Below, one piece after another: positions 8,685 to 19,730 of a DNA stretch of 37,269 nt. How positions within the stretch are numbered: position 1 is the stretch's first letter; each line of letters begins with the position of its first letter. The DNA is from Candidatus Susulua stagnicola. GTDB taxonomy: Bacteria > Omnitrophota > Gorgyraeia > Duberdicusellales > 4484-171. The DNA is taken from assembly GCA_030765735.1 (NCBI GenBank), contig JAVCBZ010000026.1:1-37269 (forward strand), in the 5' to 3' direction. Below the pieces are notes generated by a model, which saw only the letters and a program-made list of their open reading frames with translations, was not told the DNA's origin and searched no databases. The translations under genes were made by a program, and so were the position numbers.

Positions 8685-10397
8685 ATGAAAGTTGCCATAT
8701 ACGCTCGCTATTCTTCTGAAAACCAAAGCGCCAAAAGCATTGACGACCAAATACGCGTATGCAAAGACTATGCCGGAAAAAATAACTTTCTTGTAGAAGA
8801 CGAACACGTCTATGTTGATAAGGCAATTTCAGGGTCTATTGTTGACCGGCCCGGATTGCAGGCTTTGGAAAAGGCTGCCGAGAATAAAGAATTTGATACT
8901 GTGATTGTAGATGACTTATCCCGGATATCACGAAGCAACCATCAAATGTTGACTTTAGTTCTTAAATTCAACTACCTGCAAATTAGAATTATCTCTGTAT
9001 CAGACGGTATCTCTACAGATGATGACAATTCTAAATTAGGCATTCATCTGCGCGGGCTTATGAATGAACTTTATCTTGATGACCTTAAAAAGAAAACCAT
9101 GCGTGGATTAGAAGGCCAGAAAATCCGCGGTTTTAGTGTAGGCGAAAATGTATTTGGCTATTTTACCGAACCGGTCGGCGAGCTAAGGATTGGCAAAAGG
9201 GGTGAAGCAAAGCATGACGGGATGATCCATAAAATAAATCCTGAGCAAGCCGATATAGTAAAAAGGATATTTAATGAGTTCTCCGGAGGTAAAAGCTTAA
9301 GAAAACTTGCCGCATCGCTTAATGAGGACAAAATCCCTACTAAACGCGGGCTTTCCGGTGGTTGGAATATTTCCAGTTTACGCAGAATCTTACAAAATAA
9401 AAAATATATTGGTATCTGGATATGGAAAACAACCAAAACCGTCCGAGATCCTCTGACCGGGAAAAAGAAAATTGTTTCGCGTCCCGAAAAGGAGCATTTA
9501 TCCACACGCAGAAAAGATTTAATAATTATTGAGCAGGATATTTGGGATAAAACCAGGGAAAGGTGGTCTAAAATGGTAGGCGCCTATCCTCTATCTAAAA
9601 AGGCAAGAGCAAACGGCCAAAAACAAAAAAGTTATGTTCATTGTGCCCCAACTCATCTTTTTTCGGGAACAATGAAATGCCACTGTTGTAACGGGCCAAT
9701 TGTTCTTGTCAGCGGAAAAGGCGACGGTTACTATGGTTGTTATAATTTTCGCCGTAAAACCTGTACTAATAAATTATTAGTATCCCGTAAGCGTGTAGAA
9801 AAAACCATCCTCACTGCGCTACAAGAAAAGGTTTTGACTCTTAATAATATAAACTACATTTATAAGAATCTGGAAACCCAAATAGCAAAAAGATTAAACA
9901 ATAACCCTGAGGCCATAAAGAAGAAAAGAGCCCAGCATGATAAGCTTTCTTTAGAAATGCAGAATTACTTGAATTACATTAAGTTAGGTAACTTTTCAAA
10001 GGCCGTATCCGAAGCATTAAAGCACTGTGAATCGAGGTTTGAGCTGTTAACAGAAGAAATAAAATCCCTGGAATTCCAGAAGAGCAACACCTTTAAATCC
10101 CCTCCCCTAGAGTGGGTGAAACACCGTCTAGAACGTTTACAGGAAACACTTAGCAAGAAGGCCACCTCAGCAGCCCTTGTCTTAAAAGGGCTCCTATCCC
10201 CCATATCCCTTGAGCCTGTATTAAGCCCTGATAATGACTTCTATTCAGTAGTTAATGCTCAGGAAGGAAGGTTTAAACCCTATTACGTGGCCCATATAAA
10301 AGCACAAACCCTTGCTCTTCTCGATGAGAAGAACAAGGGTTCGAATTGGTTTCAGTGGCGGGGTCGATGGGATTCGAACCCACGATCACCTGCGTGA
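8685..10397 (+). CDS. Large serine recombinase (resolvase + recombinase + zinc-ribbon domains)
   Basis: 570 aa. YARYSSENQSAKSIDDQIRVCKDYA catalytic N-terminus, VDDLSRISR, CHCCNGP...YGCYNFRRKTC zinc ribbon. Final residues GRWDSNPRSPA come from antisense tRNA-Asp sequence. Confidence 0.93.
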   Translation: MKVAIYARYSSENQSAKSIDDQIRVCKDYAGKNNFLVEDEHVYVDKAISGSIVDRPGLQALEKAAENKEFDTVIVDDLSRISRSNHQMLTLVLKFNYLQIRIISVSDGISTDDDNSKLGIHLRGLMNELYLDDLKKKTMRGLEGQKIRGFSVGENVFGYFTEPVGELRIGKRGEAKHDGMIHKINPEQADIVKRIFNEFSGGKSLRKLAASLNEDKIPTKRGLSGGWNISSLRRILQNKKYIGIWIWKTTKTVRDPLTGKKKIVSRPEKEHLSTRRKDLIIIEQDIWDKTRERWSKMVGAYPLSKKARANGQKQKSYVHCAPTHLFSGTMKCHCCNGPIVLVSGKGDGYYGCYNFRRKTCTNKLLVSRKRVEKTILTALQEKVLTLNNINYIYKNLETQIAKRLNNNPEAIKKKRAQHDKLSLEMQNYLNYIKLGNFSKAVSEALKHCESRFELLTEEIKSLEFQKSNTFKSPPLEWVKHRLERLQETLSKKATSAALVLKGLLSPISLEPVLSPDNDFYSVVNAQEGRFKPYYVAHIKAQTLALLDEKNKGSNWFQWRGRWDSNPRSPA

Positions 10398-13034: not shown

Positions 13035-13862
13035 TTATTTTAATTTTTTAATAATTCGTTCTAGATCCTCTAAGCTGTAATACTCAACAACAATTCTACC
13101 ACGATTTTTCTTTTTGTTGAAGACTTTAACTTTAGTTCCTAATAATTTTTGAAGTCTCTCCTCTAGCTCAACTATAAAAGGATCGCTCTTCTTTTTCTTT
13201 TTAGACACCATCCTAACTTTATTTTCTATCTCTCTAACCGACATTCCTTCTTTTAAAATCTGATAAAATATTTTTTCTTGGGTTTGGATTTTATCAGCTC
13301 CTAAGATTGTTCGGGCCTGAGTTCGAGTAATCATTCTTTTACGCACAGCCTCTTTTATTTTTTCTGGTAATTTAAGTAATCGTAAAACATTTACCACTGT
13401 GGTCTTATCTTTGCCAACAAATTTAGCAACATCTTCTAATGAAAAATCAAAATCTTCGATTAACCTTTTAAAAGCTTCTGCTTCTTCTATGGGATTTAAA
13501 TCTTGTCTCTGAAGGTTTTCAACAATAGCTAAAACAAAAGCCTCTTTATCGTCTAGTTCCTTAATAATAGTTGGTATCTCCTTGAGCCCCAAAGACTTAG
13601 CAGCTTCATACCTTCTTTCTCCAGCAACAATTTCATAGCTTCCTCCACTTATTTCTCTTGCTACAATTGGTTGAATAAATCCTTTTTCTTTGATTGATCT
13701 AGTTAGTTCTCCTAATTCTTTTTCACTTATTTCTTGTCTAGGTTGGCATTTAGCAGGCTTTACTTTATCTAATGATAAGCGAATGAATTCTCTTGGTAAC
13801 ATTGCTGCTGTCTTTTTAGGAATAAGTGCATCCAATCCTCTACCTAAAACCTTTCTATCCAT
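13035..13862 (-). CDS. parB: Chromosome partitioning protein ParB
   Basis: 275 aa. RGLDALIPKK, IVAGERRYEAAKSLGLKEIP, VENLQRQDLNPIEEAEAFKRL. Confidence 0.97.
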   Translation of the reverse strand: MDRKVLGRGLDALIPKKTAAMLPREFIRLSLDKVKPAKCQPRQEISEKELGELTRSIKEKGFIQPIVAREISGGSYEIVAGERRYEAAKSLGLKEIPTIIKELDDKEAFVLAIVENLQRQDLNPIEEAEAFKRLIEDFDFSLEDVAKFVGKDKTTVVNVLRLLKLPEKIKEAVRKRMITRTQARTILGADKIQTQEKIFYQILKEGMSVREIENKVRMVSKKKKKSDPFIVELEERLQKLLGTKVKVFNKKKNRGRIVVEYYSLEDLERIIKKLK

Positions 13863-13913
13863 TTCCCCTCCTAGTTCTCCTATTAAATTAATTCAATTGC
13901 TAACCATAACTTG

Positions 13914-14705
13914 TTATTGGACTTCGATAGTTTTTTGTCCAACTTCTATCCTTTCTTTTAATACTTCCTGGGCTAAATTAAAATAGGCTTTGCTACCTAC
14001 ACAACCAGAATCATAAAAACATATTGGCTTACCAAAGCTAGGTGCTTCAGCAAGTCTTATATTTCGTGGCACAATAACATTAAATGTTTTTTTCTGAAAA
14101 AAATTCCTTACCTCCTCTATAACCTGTAAGGTAAGACGAGTACGAAAATCACCCATAGTAAGAAGAACTCCCTCTATCTCTAAAGACGGTTTTAGCCTCT
14201 CGCGAACTAATTCTATTGTATTAACCAATTTAGAAACTCCTTCCAAAGCATAATATTCACATTGGATTGGGATAATTAAGCTATCTGAAGCTACCAAAAC
14301 GTTTAATGTAAGTAACCCTAAAGATGGCGGCGCATCAATAATAATATAAGAAAAATCATCTTTTACTTGTTTTACTTTATCTTGTAGTTGCATCTCTCTA
14401 TTTTCAATATTTACTAACTCAACTTCTCCTCCGGTAAGAGAGATATCTGAAGGACTAATATATAAATTGGGCCATTTAGTAGGATAAATACTTTCTGAAA
14501 TACTAGTTTTACCCATGATTGTATCGTAAATTGAATTTTTGTCTTGACTATCAAACCCAACTCCTGAAGTAGCATTGCCTTGAGGATCCATATCTATAAG
14601 CAAAGTTTTTTTACCGGCTAAACCTAAAAGTGAGCTTAAATTAATAGCTGTAGTAGTTTTGCCTGTCCCCCCTTTTTGATTACAAATACCAATTATTTTG
14701 CCCAT
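13914..14705 (-). CDS. parA: Chromosome partitioning ATPase ParA/Soj
   Basis: 263 aa. Deviant Walker A IGICNQKGGTGKTTTAINL, IDAPPSLGLLTLN. Confidence 0.97.
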   Translation of the reverse strand: MGKIIGICNQKGGTGKTTTAINLSSLLGLAGKKTLLIDMDPQGNATSGVGFDSQDKNSIYDTIMGKTSISESIYPTKWPNLYISPSDISLTGGEVELVNIENREMQLQDKVKQVKDDFSYIIIDAPPSLGLLTLNVLVASDSLIIPIQCEYYALEGVSKLVNTIELVRERLKPSLEIEGVLLTMGDFRTRLTLQVIEEVRNFFQKKTFNVIVPRNIRLAEAPSFGKPICFYDSGCVGSKAYFNLAQEVLKERIEVGQKTIEVQ

Positions 14706-17116: not shown

Positions 17117-17144
17117 TTGCAAAGAACTTTTATTGCGGTATAAT
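17117..17144 (+). promoter_or_regulatory. Putative dnaA promoter
   Basis: TTGCAA (17117-17122), 16-nt spacer, TATAAT (17139-17144). Confidence 0.65.
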
Positions 17145-17165: not shown

Positions 17166-17174
17166 TGTGAATAA
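17166..17174 (-). promoter_or_regulatory. DnaA box (TTATTCACA on minus strand)
   Basis: TGTGAATAA on plus = TTATTCACA, fits TTATNCACA. Forms one arm of the imperfect dyad TTATTTTCACCT-catagct-AGGTGTGAATAA (17144-17174). Confidence 0.7.
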
Positions 17175-17203
17175 CTTGTGAATTTTGTGAACTCATCCTT
17201 ATT

Positions 17204-18538
17204 ATGGCAGAACAAATTTGGCAAACCTGTAAAGAAAAACTTAAGAATACGTTAGGAGATACTTCTTTCGATACTTGGATTGCTCCGTTAAATTTAAAAA
17301 AGATAACCCATTCATCATTAGTCTTAGAAGCGCCAGATAGTTTCTTTAAAGATTGGGTTGAAAGCCGACATCTTCCTCAAATAAAACAATCCTTAAAAGA
17401 CATTACTCAAAGAGATTTTGAAATTACTTTTGATGTAAACCCAACTCTTTTAAAAAGAAAAACTACTAAAATTTTTAAAACAATTCAGAAAAGTTTTCGC
17501 GAAGAGCCTCAAGACTCTTTACGTTTAAATCGTCGTTTTACTTTTGATAATTTTATTGAAGGAGCTTCAAACCGTATGGCTCATGCTGCTTCCTTAGCTG
17601 TTTCCAATGCTCCTGGAAAATCTTATAACCCTCTTTTTATTTATGGAGGAGTAGGCTTAGGGAAAACCCATCTTATGCAAGCAATAGCTCAACATACTCT
17701 TTCTCTTAACAACCAAGCAAAAGTAAAATACACTTCTTCTGAAAAATTCACCAATGAACTTATTTTTTCTATACGCAACCGTTCCACTGAAAAATTTCGC
17801 CAAAAACATAGAGAAATTGATATCCTATTAATTGACGACATTCAGTTTCTTGCTGGTAAAGAAGCTGCTCAAGAAGAATTTTTCCATACCTTTAATGTTT
17901 TATATGATTACCACAAACAAATTATCGTCTCTTCTGATAAACCCCCAAAAGAAATTGCTAAGCTTGAAGAAAGACTTGTTTCTCGATTTAATTGGGGGCT
18001 AGTGGTGGATATCCAGCTTCCTGATTTTGAAACTAGGGTGGCAATCTTACAAAAAAAACTTGAACAAGACCCAATAAAAATAGATTCTGATGTAATTCAC
18101 TTTATCGCTAAAAACATTACTACCAATATTCGAGAATTAGAAGGAGCGTTGGTTAGGATTATTGCTTACTCTCTTATAGAAAACAAACCAATCACCTTAG
18201 AATTAGCCAAAGAAATTTTAAAAGACATGGTAAAAGAGATATATCACCGAATAACTCCGGCTACTATCTTATCAAAAGTTGGTGACTATTTTGGAATACC
18301 AAAAGAAGACTTAAAAAAGAAAAAAAGAACTAAAACCTTAGTTATACCTCGTCAAGTAGGAATGTATTTGATACGAGAACTTACGGATTTGTCTTTACCG
18401 GAGATTGGTAGTTTTTTTGGAGCTAAGCACCATACAACTATTCTTTACGCATGTAAAAAGGTTCGCCACGATTTATTAACAAATATTAAGCTTAGATTAA
18501 TTATTGACACTCTTACACAGGAAATTAAGAACTTATAA
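17204..18538 (+). CDS. dnaA: Chromosomal replication initiator protein DnaA
   Basis: 444 aa. FIYGGVGLGKTHLMQAIAQH, LLIDDIQFLAGKE, C-terminal LSLPEIGSFFGAKHHTTILYACKKV. Confidence 0.98.
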   Translation: MAEQIWQTCKEKLKNTLGDTSFDTWIAPLNLKKITHSSLVLEAPDSFFKDWVESRHLPQIKQSLKDITQRDFEITFDVNPTLLKRKTTKIFKTIQKSFREEPQDSLRLNRRFTFDNFIEGASNRMAHAASLAVSNAPGKSYNPLFIYGGVGLGKTHLMQAIAQHTLSLNNQAKVKYTSSEKFTNELIFSIRNRSTEKFRQKHREIDILLIDDIQFLAGKEAAQEEFFHTFNVLYDYHKQIIVSSDKPPKEIAKLEERLVSRFNWGLVVDIQLPDFETRVAILQKKLEQDPIKIDSDVIHFIAKNITTNIRELEGALVRIIAYSLIENKPITLELAKEILKDMVKEIYHRITPATILSKVGDYFGIPKEDLKKKKRTKTLVIPRQVGMYLIRELTDLSLPEIGSFFGAKHHTTILYACKKVRHDLLTNIKLRLIIDTLTQEIKNL

Positions 18539-18607
18539 AGAAGTTTTTAAATAAAATAGTTGTTTTTGTCTTTGGTTTTGATACAATAATCACCTCTTAA
18601 CAGAATT

Positions 18608-18633
18608 CACAGGGTATACTACTATTACTACTA
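18608..18633 (+). promoter_or_regulatory. Putative oriC unwinding element (DnaA-trio-like repeat)
   Basis: CACAGGGTATACTACTATTACTACTA runs into the dnaN ATG: G-rich step followed by ACT-ACT-ATT-ACT-ACT-A. A degenerate DnaA box (GAATTCACA, 18603-18611) precedes it. Confidence 0.65.
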
Positions 18634-19730
18634 TGAAATTTATTATTAATAAAGATATATTAGTAGAGAACTTACAAAAAGTGTTGGGACCGACAACAAC
18701 CAAACAAAACTTCCCTATGCTCAGTAGTGTTTTGTTAACTACTACAGAAAACAATTTAAAACTTACAACTACTGATTTAGATATAAGCATAATATCTCTA
18801 CAGGAGCTTGAGAAAACAGAAAGTGGAGAAATAGCTATTCCAATGAAAAAGTTTTTTTCAATCATTCGGGAGCTTCCACCAGAAAAAATTACTGTCGAGA
18901 CAATCAAGAATCACCTCTTAATAAGATGTGAAAAAGTTGAGTTTAAGGTGAGCACATTAAATCCTGAGGAATTCCCTCAAATTCAGGAGAAAGGGGGAGT
19001 ATCTTTAATAAAGATTGATCCTCAAGAATTAGGAGCAATGATCAGATTAACTTCTTTTTGTGTTGGGCACGAAGACTCTAATTATGTATTAGGAGGGATT
19101 TTATTTGAAATAGAGGAAAATATAATCAAGTTAATCTCTACTGATGGCAAAAGGTTATCCTTTGTACAAAGAAAGCTACCCTCTAAACAACCAGAGATAA
19201 CCTCAAAAATATCTTTTATTTTACCAATTAAAGCGGTAAATGAACTCCAGAAATTAATAAAAGATAAAATTGGAGAAGTGTATTTGTCTGTAGAAGATAA
19301 TAGAGTTGGTTTTGACTTTAAAGATACTCATTTTATTGCCCGCCCAATAGAAGGGGAGTTCCCTGACTATGAGCAATATATTCCTAAAGAAGGGAGAGAT
19401 AAACTTGTAGTTGAACGAAAAAAAATGCTCTTTGCTTTAAAGAGAGCTAGTTTGCTTTCTACAACAGACCATCTGGGAGTAAAGATGGAGTTAAAAAAAG
19501 ATCATTTGAATATTTACAAAAATACCCCCCAGTTAGGTGAGGTAAGAGAGAGAGTGGATGTAAAATATAGTGGGTCACATTTGGAGATAGGTTTTAATCC
19601 AAGTTATCTAATAGATGTGCTTAAGAATTTAAGCGATGAAGAAGTTTGTATTGATTTTTTCGGTTCTGACAAACCAGCTGTTTTGAGAAAGGAAGATTAT
19701 ATATATCTTCTTCTTCCAATGAAATCTTAA
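18633..19730 (+). CDS. dnaN: DNA polymerase III beta sliding clamp
   Basis: 365 aa. MKFIINKDILVENLQKVLGPTTTKQNFPMLSSVLL; C-terminal YIYLLLPMK. Confidence 0.97.
   Translation: MKFIINKDILVENLQKVLGPTTTKQNFPMLSSVLLTTTENNLKLTTTDLDISIISLQELEKTESGEIAIPMKKFFSIIRELPPEKITVETIKNHLLIRCEKVEFKVSTLNPEEFPQIQEKGGVSLIKIDPQELGAMIRLTSFCVGHEDSNYVLGGILFEIEENIIKLISTDGKRLSFVQRKLPSKQPEITSKISFILPIKAVNELQKLIKDKIGEVYLSVEDNRVGFDFKDTHFIARPIEGEFPDYEQYIPKEGRDKLVVERKKMLFALKRASLLSTTDHLGVKMELKKDHLNIYKNTPQLGEVRERVDVKYSGSHLEIGFNPSYLIDVLKNLSDEEVCIDFFGSDKPAVLRKEDYIYLLLPMKS

Follow-up and report, generated by a model that had tools for sequence, protein, structure and literature searches.

The short interval between dnaA and dnaN in the genome of Candidatus Susulua stagnicola raises the question of whether a triplet repeat that runs directly into the dnaN start codon belongs to the replication origin of the chromosome, to the translation of dnaN, or to both. 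We addressed this question in a 37,269-nt stretch of contig JAVCBZ010000026.1 (the window), which is part of a 1.1-Mb genome in 108 contigs and whose nearest named relative is a Candidatus Omnitrophota MAG with a 93% identical DnaA. The window has the standard gene neighbourhood of an origin, in the order parB, parA, yidC, yidD, rpmH, dnaA, dnaN, gyrB, gyrA (yidD and rpmH were identified by eye from a six-frame translation). Pfam matches identify the initiator gene dnaA (17204–18538, + strand, 444 aa) and the sliding clamp gene dnaN (18633–19730, + strand, 365 aa, DNA_pol3_beta domains), and because the Pfam alignment of the clamp begins at residue 1, the start codon at 18633 is right. Cumulative GC skew, which an earlier note on this DNA had proposed as a check, turns locally at this place: the skew changes sign near 18 kb, with a cumulative minimum at 17946 and a near-equal value at 18800. 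At the genome scale, the skew of two single-contig relatives was noisy and weakly consistent in one case and uninformative in the other.

We read the interval as the basal unwinding system (BUS) of the chromosomal oriC in a compacted form, here in a member of Candidatus Omnitrophota, and place the probability of this reading at roughly 85%. The earlier note had described a DnaA-trio-like run entering dnaN, preceded by a degenerate DnaA box and a G-rich step in an intergenic region with few strong boxes, and this description held in each part. Positions 18619–18633 (+) read CTA CTA TTA CTA CTA, or 3'-GAT GAT AAT GAT GAT-5' on the other strand, and thus form five DnaA-trios, the final base of the fifth (18633) being the A of the dnaN ATG; the surrounding segment CACAGGGTATACTACTATTACTACTATG occupies 18608–18635. 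Upstream lie the box GAATTCACA (box 2, 18603–18611, +) and the G-rich spacer GGGT (18612–18615, +), and the dnaA–dnaN intergenic region contains no DnaA box within one mismatch of TTATNCACA. The ATA at 18616–18618 may be a degenerate first trio. Beyond that description, we found a further degenerate box, CTCTTAACA (box 1, 18594–18602, +; family consensus TTAACAgttTtcACA), which abuts box 2, so that two co-oriented boxes at 18594–18611 form the tandem arrangement commonest in BUS elements; three boxes upstream of dnaA, a predicted dnaN promoter, and a spacer and Shine-Dalgarno sequence that relatives outside the window's family retain between trios and dnaN were likewise new.

BUS elements have already been predicted in most bacterial origins (PMC8287927), and the published rule asks for a DnaA box no more than 16 bp from the trios, with the better box carrying at most two mismatches (PMC8287927). 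Box 2 lies 7 nt from the trios (4 nt if ATA is counted as a trio); it has three mismatches to TTATCCACA and two to TTATTCACA, so it comes within the two-mismatch limit only against TTATTCACA, the form that occurs upstream of dnaA. A BUS calls for three or more NAN trios (consensus 3'-GAT-5'); five of the consensus type are present at 18619–18633, and the unstable AT-rich DNA expected to adjoin them is present as well, though largely inside dnaN. A loose scan (a box with up to three mismatches plus at least five loose trios) is expected to return about 1.3 chance matches per window, so the loose pattern by itself is not significant, and one might suppose a chance triplet repeat in AT-rich DNA that was kept through recent common descent. 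Significance rests on the strict repeat and its conservation. The strict pattern of five consecutive YTA triplets is rare, with one match in the 37-kb window (18619–18633) against a shuffle mean of 0.03. Members of the window's family have DnaA proteins only 60–93% identical to that of the window, yet no part of their intergenic region is as conserved as the trio columns (information of 1.26 vs 0.4–0.8 bits), in which the middle T and third A are strongest, and trios recur at conserved spacing in distant relatives. A chance origin is exceedingly improbable on this evidence.

Conservation in relatives, on which the earlier note had staked its reading, was assessed in the window's family (f1; 29 measurable genomes, which share descent and so do not give independent counts), in the sister family of its order (f2), and in 101 further Omnitrophota and 44 Firmicutes. 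The trios are conserved over family, order, and phylum and in Firmicutes; in f1 the run exceeds the 99th percentile of shuffles in 93% of members, and the composition of its trios is much like that seen in Firmicutes. What differs is the position relative to dnaN: the median distance from the last trio to the ATG is −1 nt in f1 (exactly −1 in 20/29, range −1 to 17 nt), compared with 44 nt in other Omnitrophota and 53 nt in Firmicutes. Measured from box 2 to where the last trio ends, the spacing is near-fixed within f1, at 22 nt in 22 of the 27 members with a recognisable box. Since the spacing of box and trios is kept while that of trios and ATG varies, selection on the trios can be separated from selection on the start codon. 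Two relatives with a dnaA–dnaN gap of 80–81 nt (L031 and L032) keep the trios and have no recognisable DnaA box upstream of them, possibly reflecting diverged recognition.

In a DnaA tree, f1 was monophyletic (support 99), as was the order formed by f1 and f2 (support 99). Two members of f2 have a trio-to-ATG distance of 9–10 nt, and in two of the three f2 members the trios, a Shine-Dalgarno sequence, and the ATG follow one another in a row; the third (L115) has a distance of roughly 11–12 nt and no Shine-Dalgarno. An f1 member that branches outside most of the family (L027) keeps 17 nt, also with Shine-Dalgarno absent. Among the other Omnitrophota (n = 101), one has a distance as short as 15 nt (L219), and its Shine-Dalgarno is present. 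The sister family looks intermediate, and the simplest history would be one in which the AT-rich spacer was lost on the stem of the order and the Shine-Dalgarno then on the stem of f1. The earlier note's proposal that one sequence is shared by replication initiation and dnaN translation is borne out at the level of sequence, and the sharing turns out to be a derived trait of one family.

The absence of a Shine-Dalgarno near the dnaN ATG, which had also been pointed out previously, was evident in the window, where the nearest G-run (GGG) lies 19–21 nt upstream. Counting matches of at least 4 nt, we found a Shine-Dalgarno at dnaN in 2/29 f1 members (7%), in 89% of other Omnitrophota (n = 101), and in 93% of Firmicutes (n = 44); the difference has a Fisher p of ~1e-16, a value that ignores shared descent. 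The gene dnaA was left out of these counts, its start positions being too uncertain. Wrong dnaN start calls do not account for the deficit, as a permissive search for alternative starts nearby again gave 7%. Genome-wide loss in f1 was also ruled out: samples of f1 genes carry a match of at least 4 nt in 36–51% of cases vs 14–24% at internal ATGs, with similar values in the other groups, and the genome to which the window belongs has an intact 16S tail, CACCTCCTTT (anti-Shine-Dalgarno). Because f1 genes elsewhere use the Shine-Dalgarno and the 16S tail is intact, the family has not abandoned this signal in general, although by the same crude test about half of all genes in f1 genomes also show no clear match.

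Upstream of the boxes lies a predicted extended −10 promoter for dnaN, TGATACAAT (18579–18587, +), a consensus match absent from the output of a generic sigma-70 promoter scan, with a possible −35, TTGTTT, at 18560–18565 (+). The form TGNTANAAT was found in 23/29 f1 members, and an extended −10 of the TGRTACAAT type occurs in 90% of f1 vs 29% of shuffles, mostly 27–28 nt upstream of the trios; in other Omnitrophota its frequency is not raised (19% vs 17% in shuffles). From this position we infer a dnaN transcription start at about 18593–18596, in or beside box 1, and a 5' leader of about 38 nt that would consist of the BUS itself; with a conserved extended −10 just upstream of the BUS, the leader of dnaN would be the unwinding module. 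A leaderless mRNA is not favoured, as the conserved −10 ends 41–50 nt from the ATG in most members. Translational coupling to an upstream short ORF was likewise rejected, the frame that ends in TGA at the ATG being without a standard start codon, and the leader has no special RNA fold (z 0.07). The position of the repeat against the ATG, the missing Shine-Dalgarno, and the unremarkable folding would all suit a CTA/TTA repeat that serves only as an unstructured leader aiding ribosome loading on dnaN and is unrelated to DnaA. Most of the 101 other Omnitrophota and 44 Firmicutes, however, carry homologous trios about 44–53 nt upstream of dnaN together with a separate Shine-Dalgarno, and it is the distance to the DnaA boxes that is kept rather than the distance to the ATG; we consider a role in translation alone very unlikely.

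The compacted BUS also coincides with an intrinsic DNA unwinding element. Nearest-neighbour energies place the weakest 60-bp duplex of the 37 kb at 18614–18674, which comprises the trios and mostly dnaN codons 1–14, and the weakest 30-, 40-, and 50-bp duplexes of the window fall at 18632–18662, 18622–18662, and 18615–18665 (rank 1 each). The weakest local duplex lies at the trio site in 15/27 f1 rows, with 67% of it inside dnaN, while for the weakest duplex at the trio site in the other groups the part inside dnaN is 2% and 0%; of two 20-kb stretches from relatives, one (G006) is weakest at the dnaN site and the other (G007) at another place. In the 45 nt that follow the trios, the AT content is similar across the groups (0.79, 0.75, and 0.76), although these bases are coding in f1, where the first 45 nt of other ORFs have a mean of 0.65. 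Codons 2–9 of dnaN are richer in A and T in f1 than they are in relatives with AT-rich genomes, and the clamp begins with MKFIINK in many f1 members, which can be written in A/T-only codons, and mostly with MKFKVEK or MKIKxxK in the others.

Three DnaA boxes lie directly upstream of dnaA (17166–17194, − strand), with TTATTCACA at 17174–17166 followed by AAATTCACA and GAGTTCACA; the row reads TGTGAATAAc-tTGTGAATT-TTGTGAAC, and its strict pattern occurs in 21/27 f1 members, with variant forms in the other six. A dnaA promoter, TTGCAA-16-TATAAT, is predicted by the promoter scan at 17117–17144 (+). The upstream boxes are likely to serve autoregulation or to be the second half of a bipartite origin, and because of these three boxes the origin is probably bipartite, by analogy with B. 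subtilis and C. difficile. The fact that the stronger boxes, conserved in f1, are found here could also mean that the working origin lies upstream of dnaA and that the dnaA–dnaN trios are a relic. By inspection, however, no trio run adjoins the boxes at 17166–17194, duplex stability is lowest at the dnaN site, and the bipartite origins of B. subtilis (PMC6669920) and C. difficile (PMC7561715) unwind on the dnaA–dnaN side; moreover, a relic would not retain its spacing over some 25 genera. An origin confined to the upstream boxes is accordingly quite unlikely. Many f1 members carry a reverse box, TGTGAATAAA, right after the dnaA stop (window 18539–18556); the window's genus is without it and has TTTTTAAATAAAA there.

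The window's DnaA, aligned with the B. subtilis BUS structure (8btg), retains E183, N187, I190, R202, K222, E223, and E228 as well as the arginine finger, in keeping with the ssDNA-binding ISM residues and arginine finger expected of the cognate DnaA of a BUS; among the trio-contacting positions the exception is N196, which is replaced by Arg. Of these residues, E183, N187, R202, K222, E223, and E228 were named as trio-contacting in that structure (PMC10721633), and I190 is a further trio-contacting residue (PMC8287927). The box-recognition signature is GAKHHTT instead of GG[RK]DHTT (18420–18440, residues about 406–413). This form or a close variant is present in all f1 and f2 members scored, with His where E. 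coli has D433, whereas the commonest signatures of other Omnitrophota have Asp (once Asn) there; D433 has been described as a contact to box position 7 and as highly conserved among bacteria (PMC8235120). The change could mean an altered box specificity and may account for the degenerate boxes.

These features resemble those of known systems. The B. subtilis BUS at incC (PMC6669920, PMC8287927, PMC10721633) likewise has two co-oriented boxes, a short G-rich spacer, and 5–6 trios of consensus 3'-GAT-5', as well as intrinsically unstable adjacent DNA, a dnaA–dnaN location, and the conserved trio-contacting residues. The trio sequence of C. difficile oriC2, for which DnaA-dependent unwinding was demonstrated, is identical to that of the window over 20 nt (TACTACTATTACTACTATGA), and box clusters flank dnaA on both sides there too (PMC7561715). 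In the Firmicutes loci examined, however, mostly 40–67 nt separate the trios from dnaN, an interval that holds AT-rich DNA and a Shine-Dalgarno, whereas in the window the trio run extends into the ATG, the unstable DNA is part of the coding sequence, and there is no Shine-Dalgarno. Campylobacter jejuni also has a dnaA–dnaN intergenic unwinding element with a degenerate trio, but that element is not fused to the dnaN start (PMC6052347). In the literature covered, which took in few subscription papers, we found no description of a trio run that overlaps the start of dnaN, nor of an unwinding element located within that gene.

By analogy with these systems, DnaA would bind the two weak boxes at 18594–18611, polymerise over the G-rich spacer onto the trio strand while capturing bases of the 3'-GAT/AAT-5' triplets, and open the weakest duplex of the region, namely the trios and first dnaN codons. 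The f1 family has lost the AT-rich spacer and the Shine-Dalgarno that usually stand between trios and dnaN, so that dnaN would be translated without a Shine-Dalgarno from the BUS-derived leader, transcribed from the promoter just upstream. DnaA bound here may interfere with dnaN expression, and the reverse; control of dnaN by DnaA is a more speculative step, and functional coupling of origin firing with dnaN expression is put forward as a hypothesis. In its full form, which we hold only tentatively and think doubtful, about 55 bp would be at once the origin unwinding element, a DnaA operator over the dnaN transcription start, and a Shine-Dalgarno-free ribosome entry site; the DnaA filament that fires the origin would directly silence dnaN expression in cis, and the start of its coding sequence would be constrained to easily melted DNA, so that, if this is true, an origin element is encoded in the N-terminus of a protein.

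These observations document trio-based opening in one Omnitrophota clade and show how an origin can shed its spacer and fuse with the beginning of a gene, a change for which the sister family offers an apparent intermediate; they suggest, too, that an unwinding element can be protein-coding. They also provide a natural example of an origin whose melting and the expression of an essential replication gene may be mutually exclusive on the same DNA at one moment. Origin finders limited to intergenic DNA would truncate such origins.

Two further features of the surrounding region may be mentioned. The genes parB and parA lie close to the origin, at 13035–14705, and no parS site within three mismatches of TGTTNCACGTGAAACA was present anywhere in the window. 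About 7 kb from dnaA, a large serine recombinase (8685–10397; Resolvase, Recombinase, and Zn ribbon domains) coincides with a local switch in GC skew, possibly marking an integrated element near the origin.
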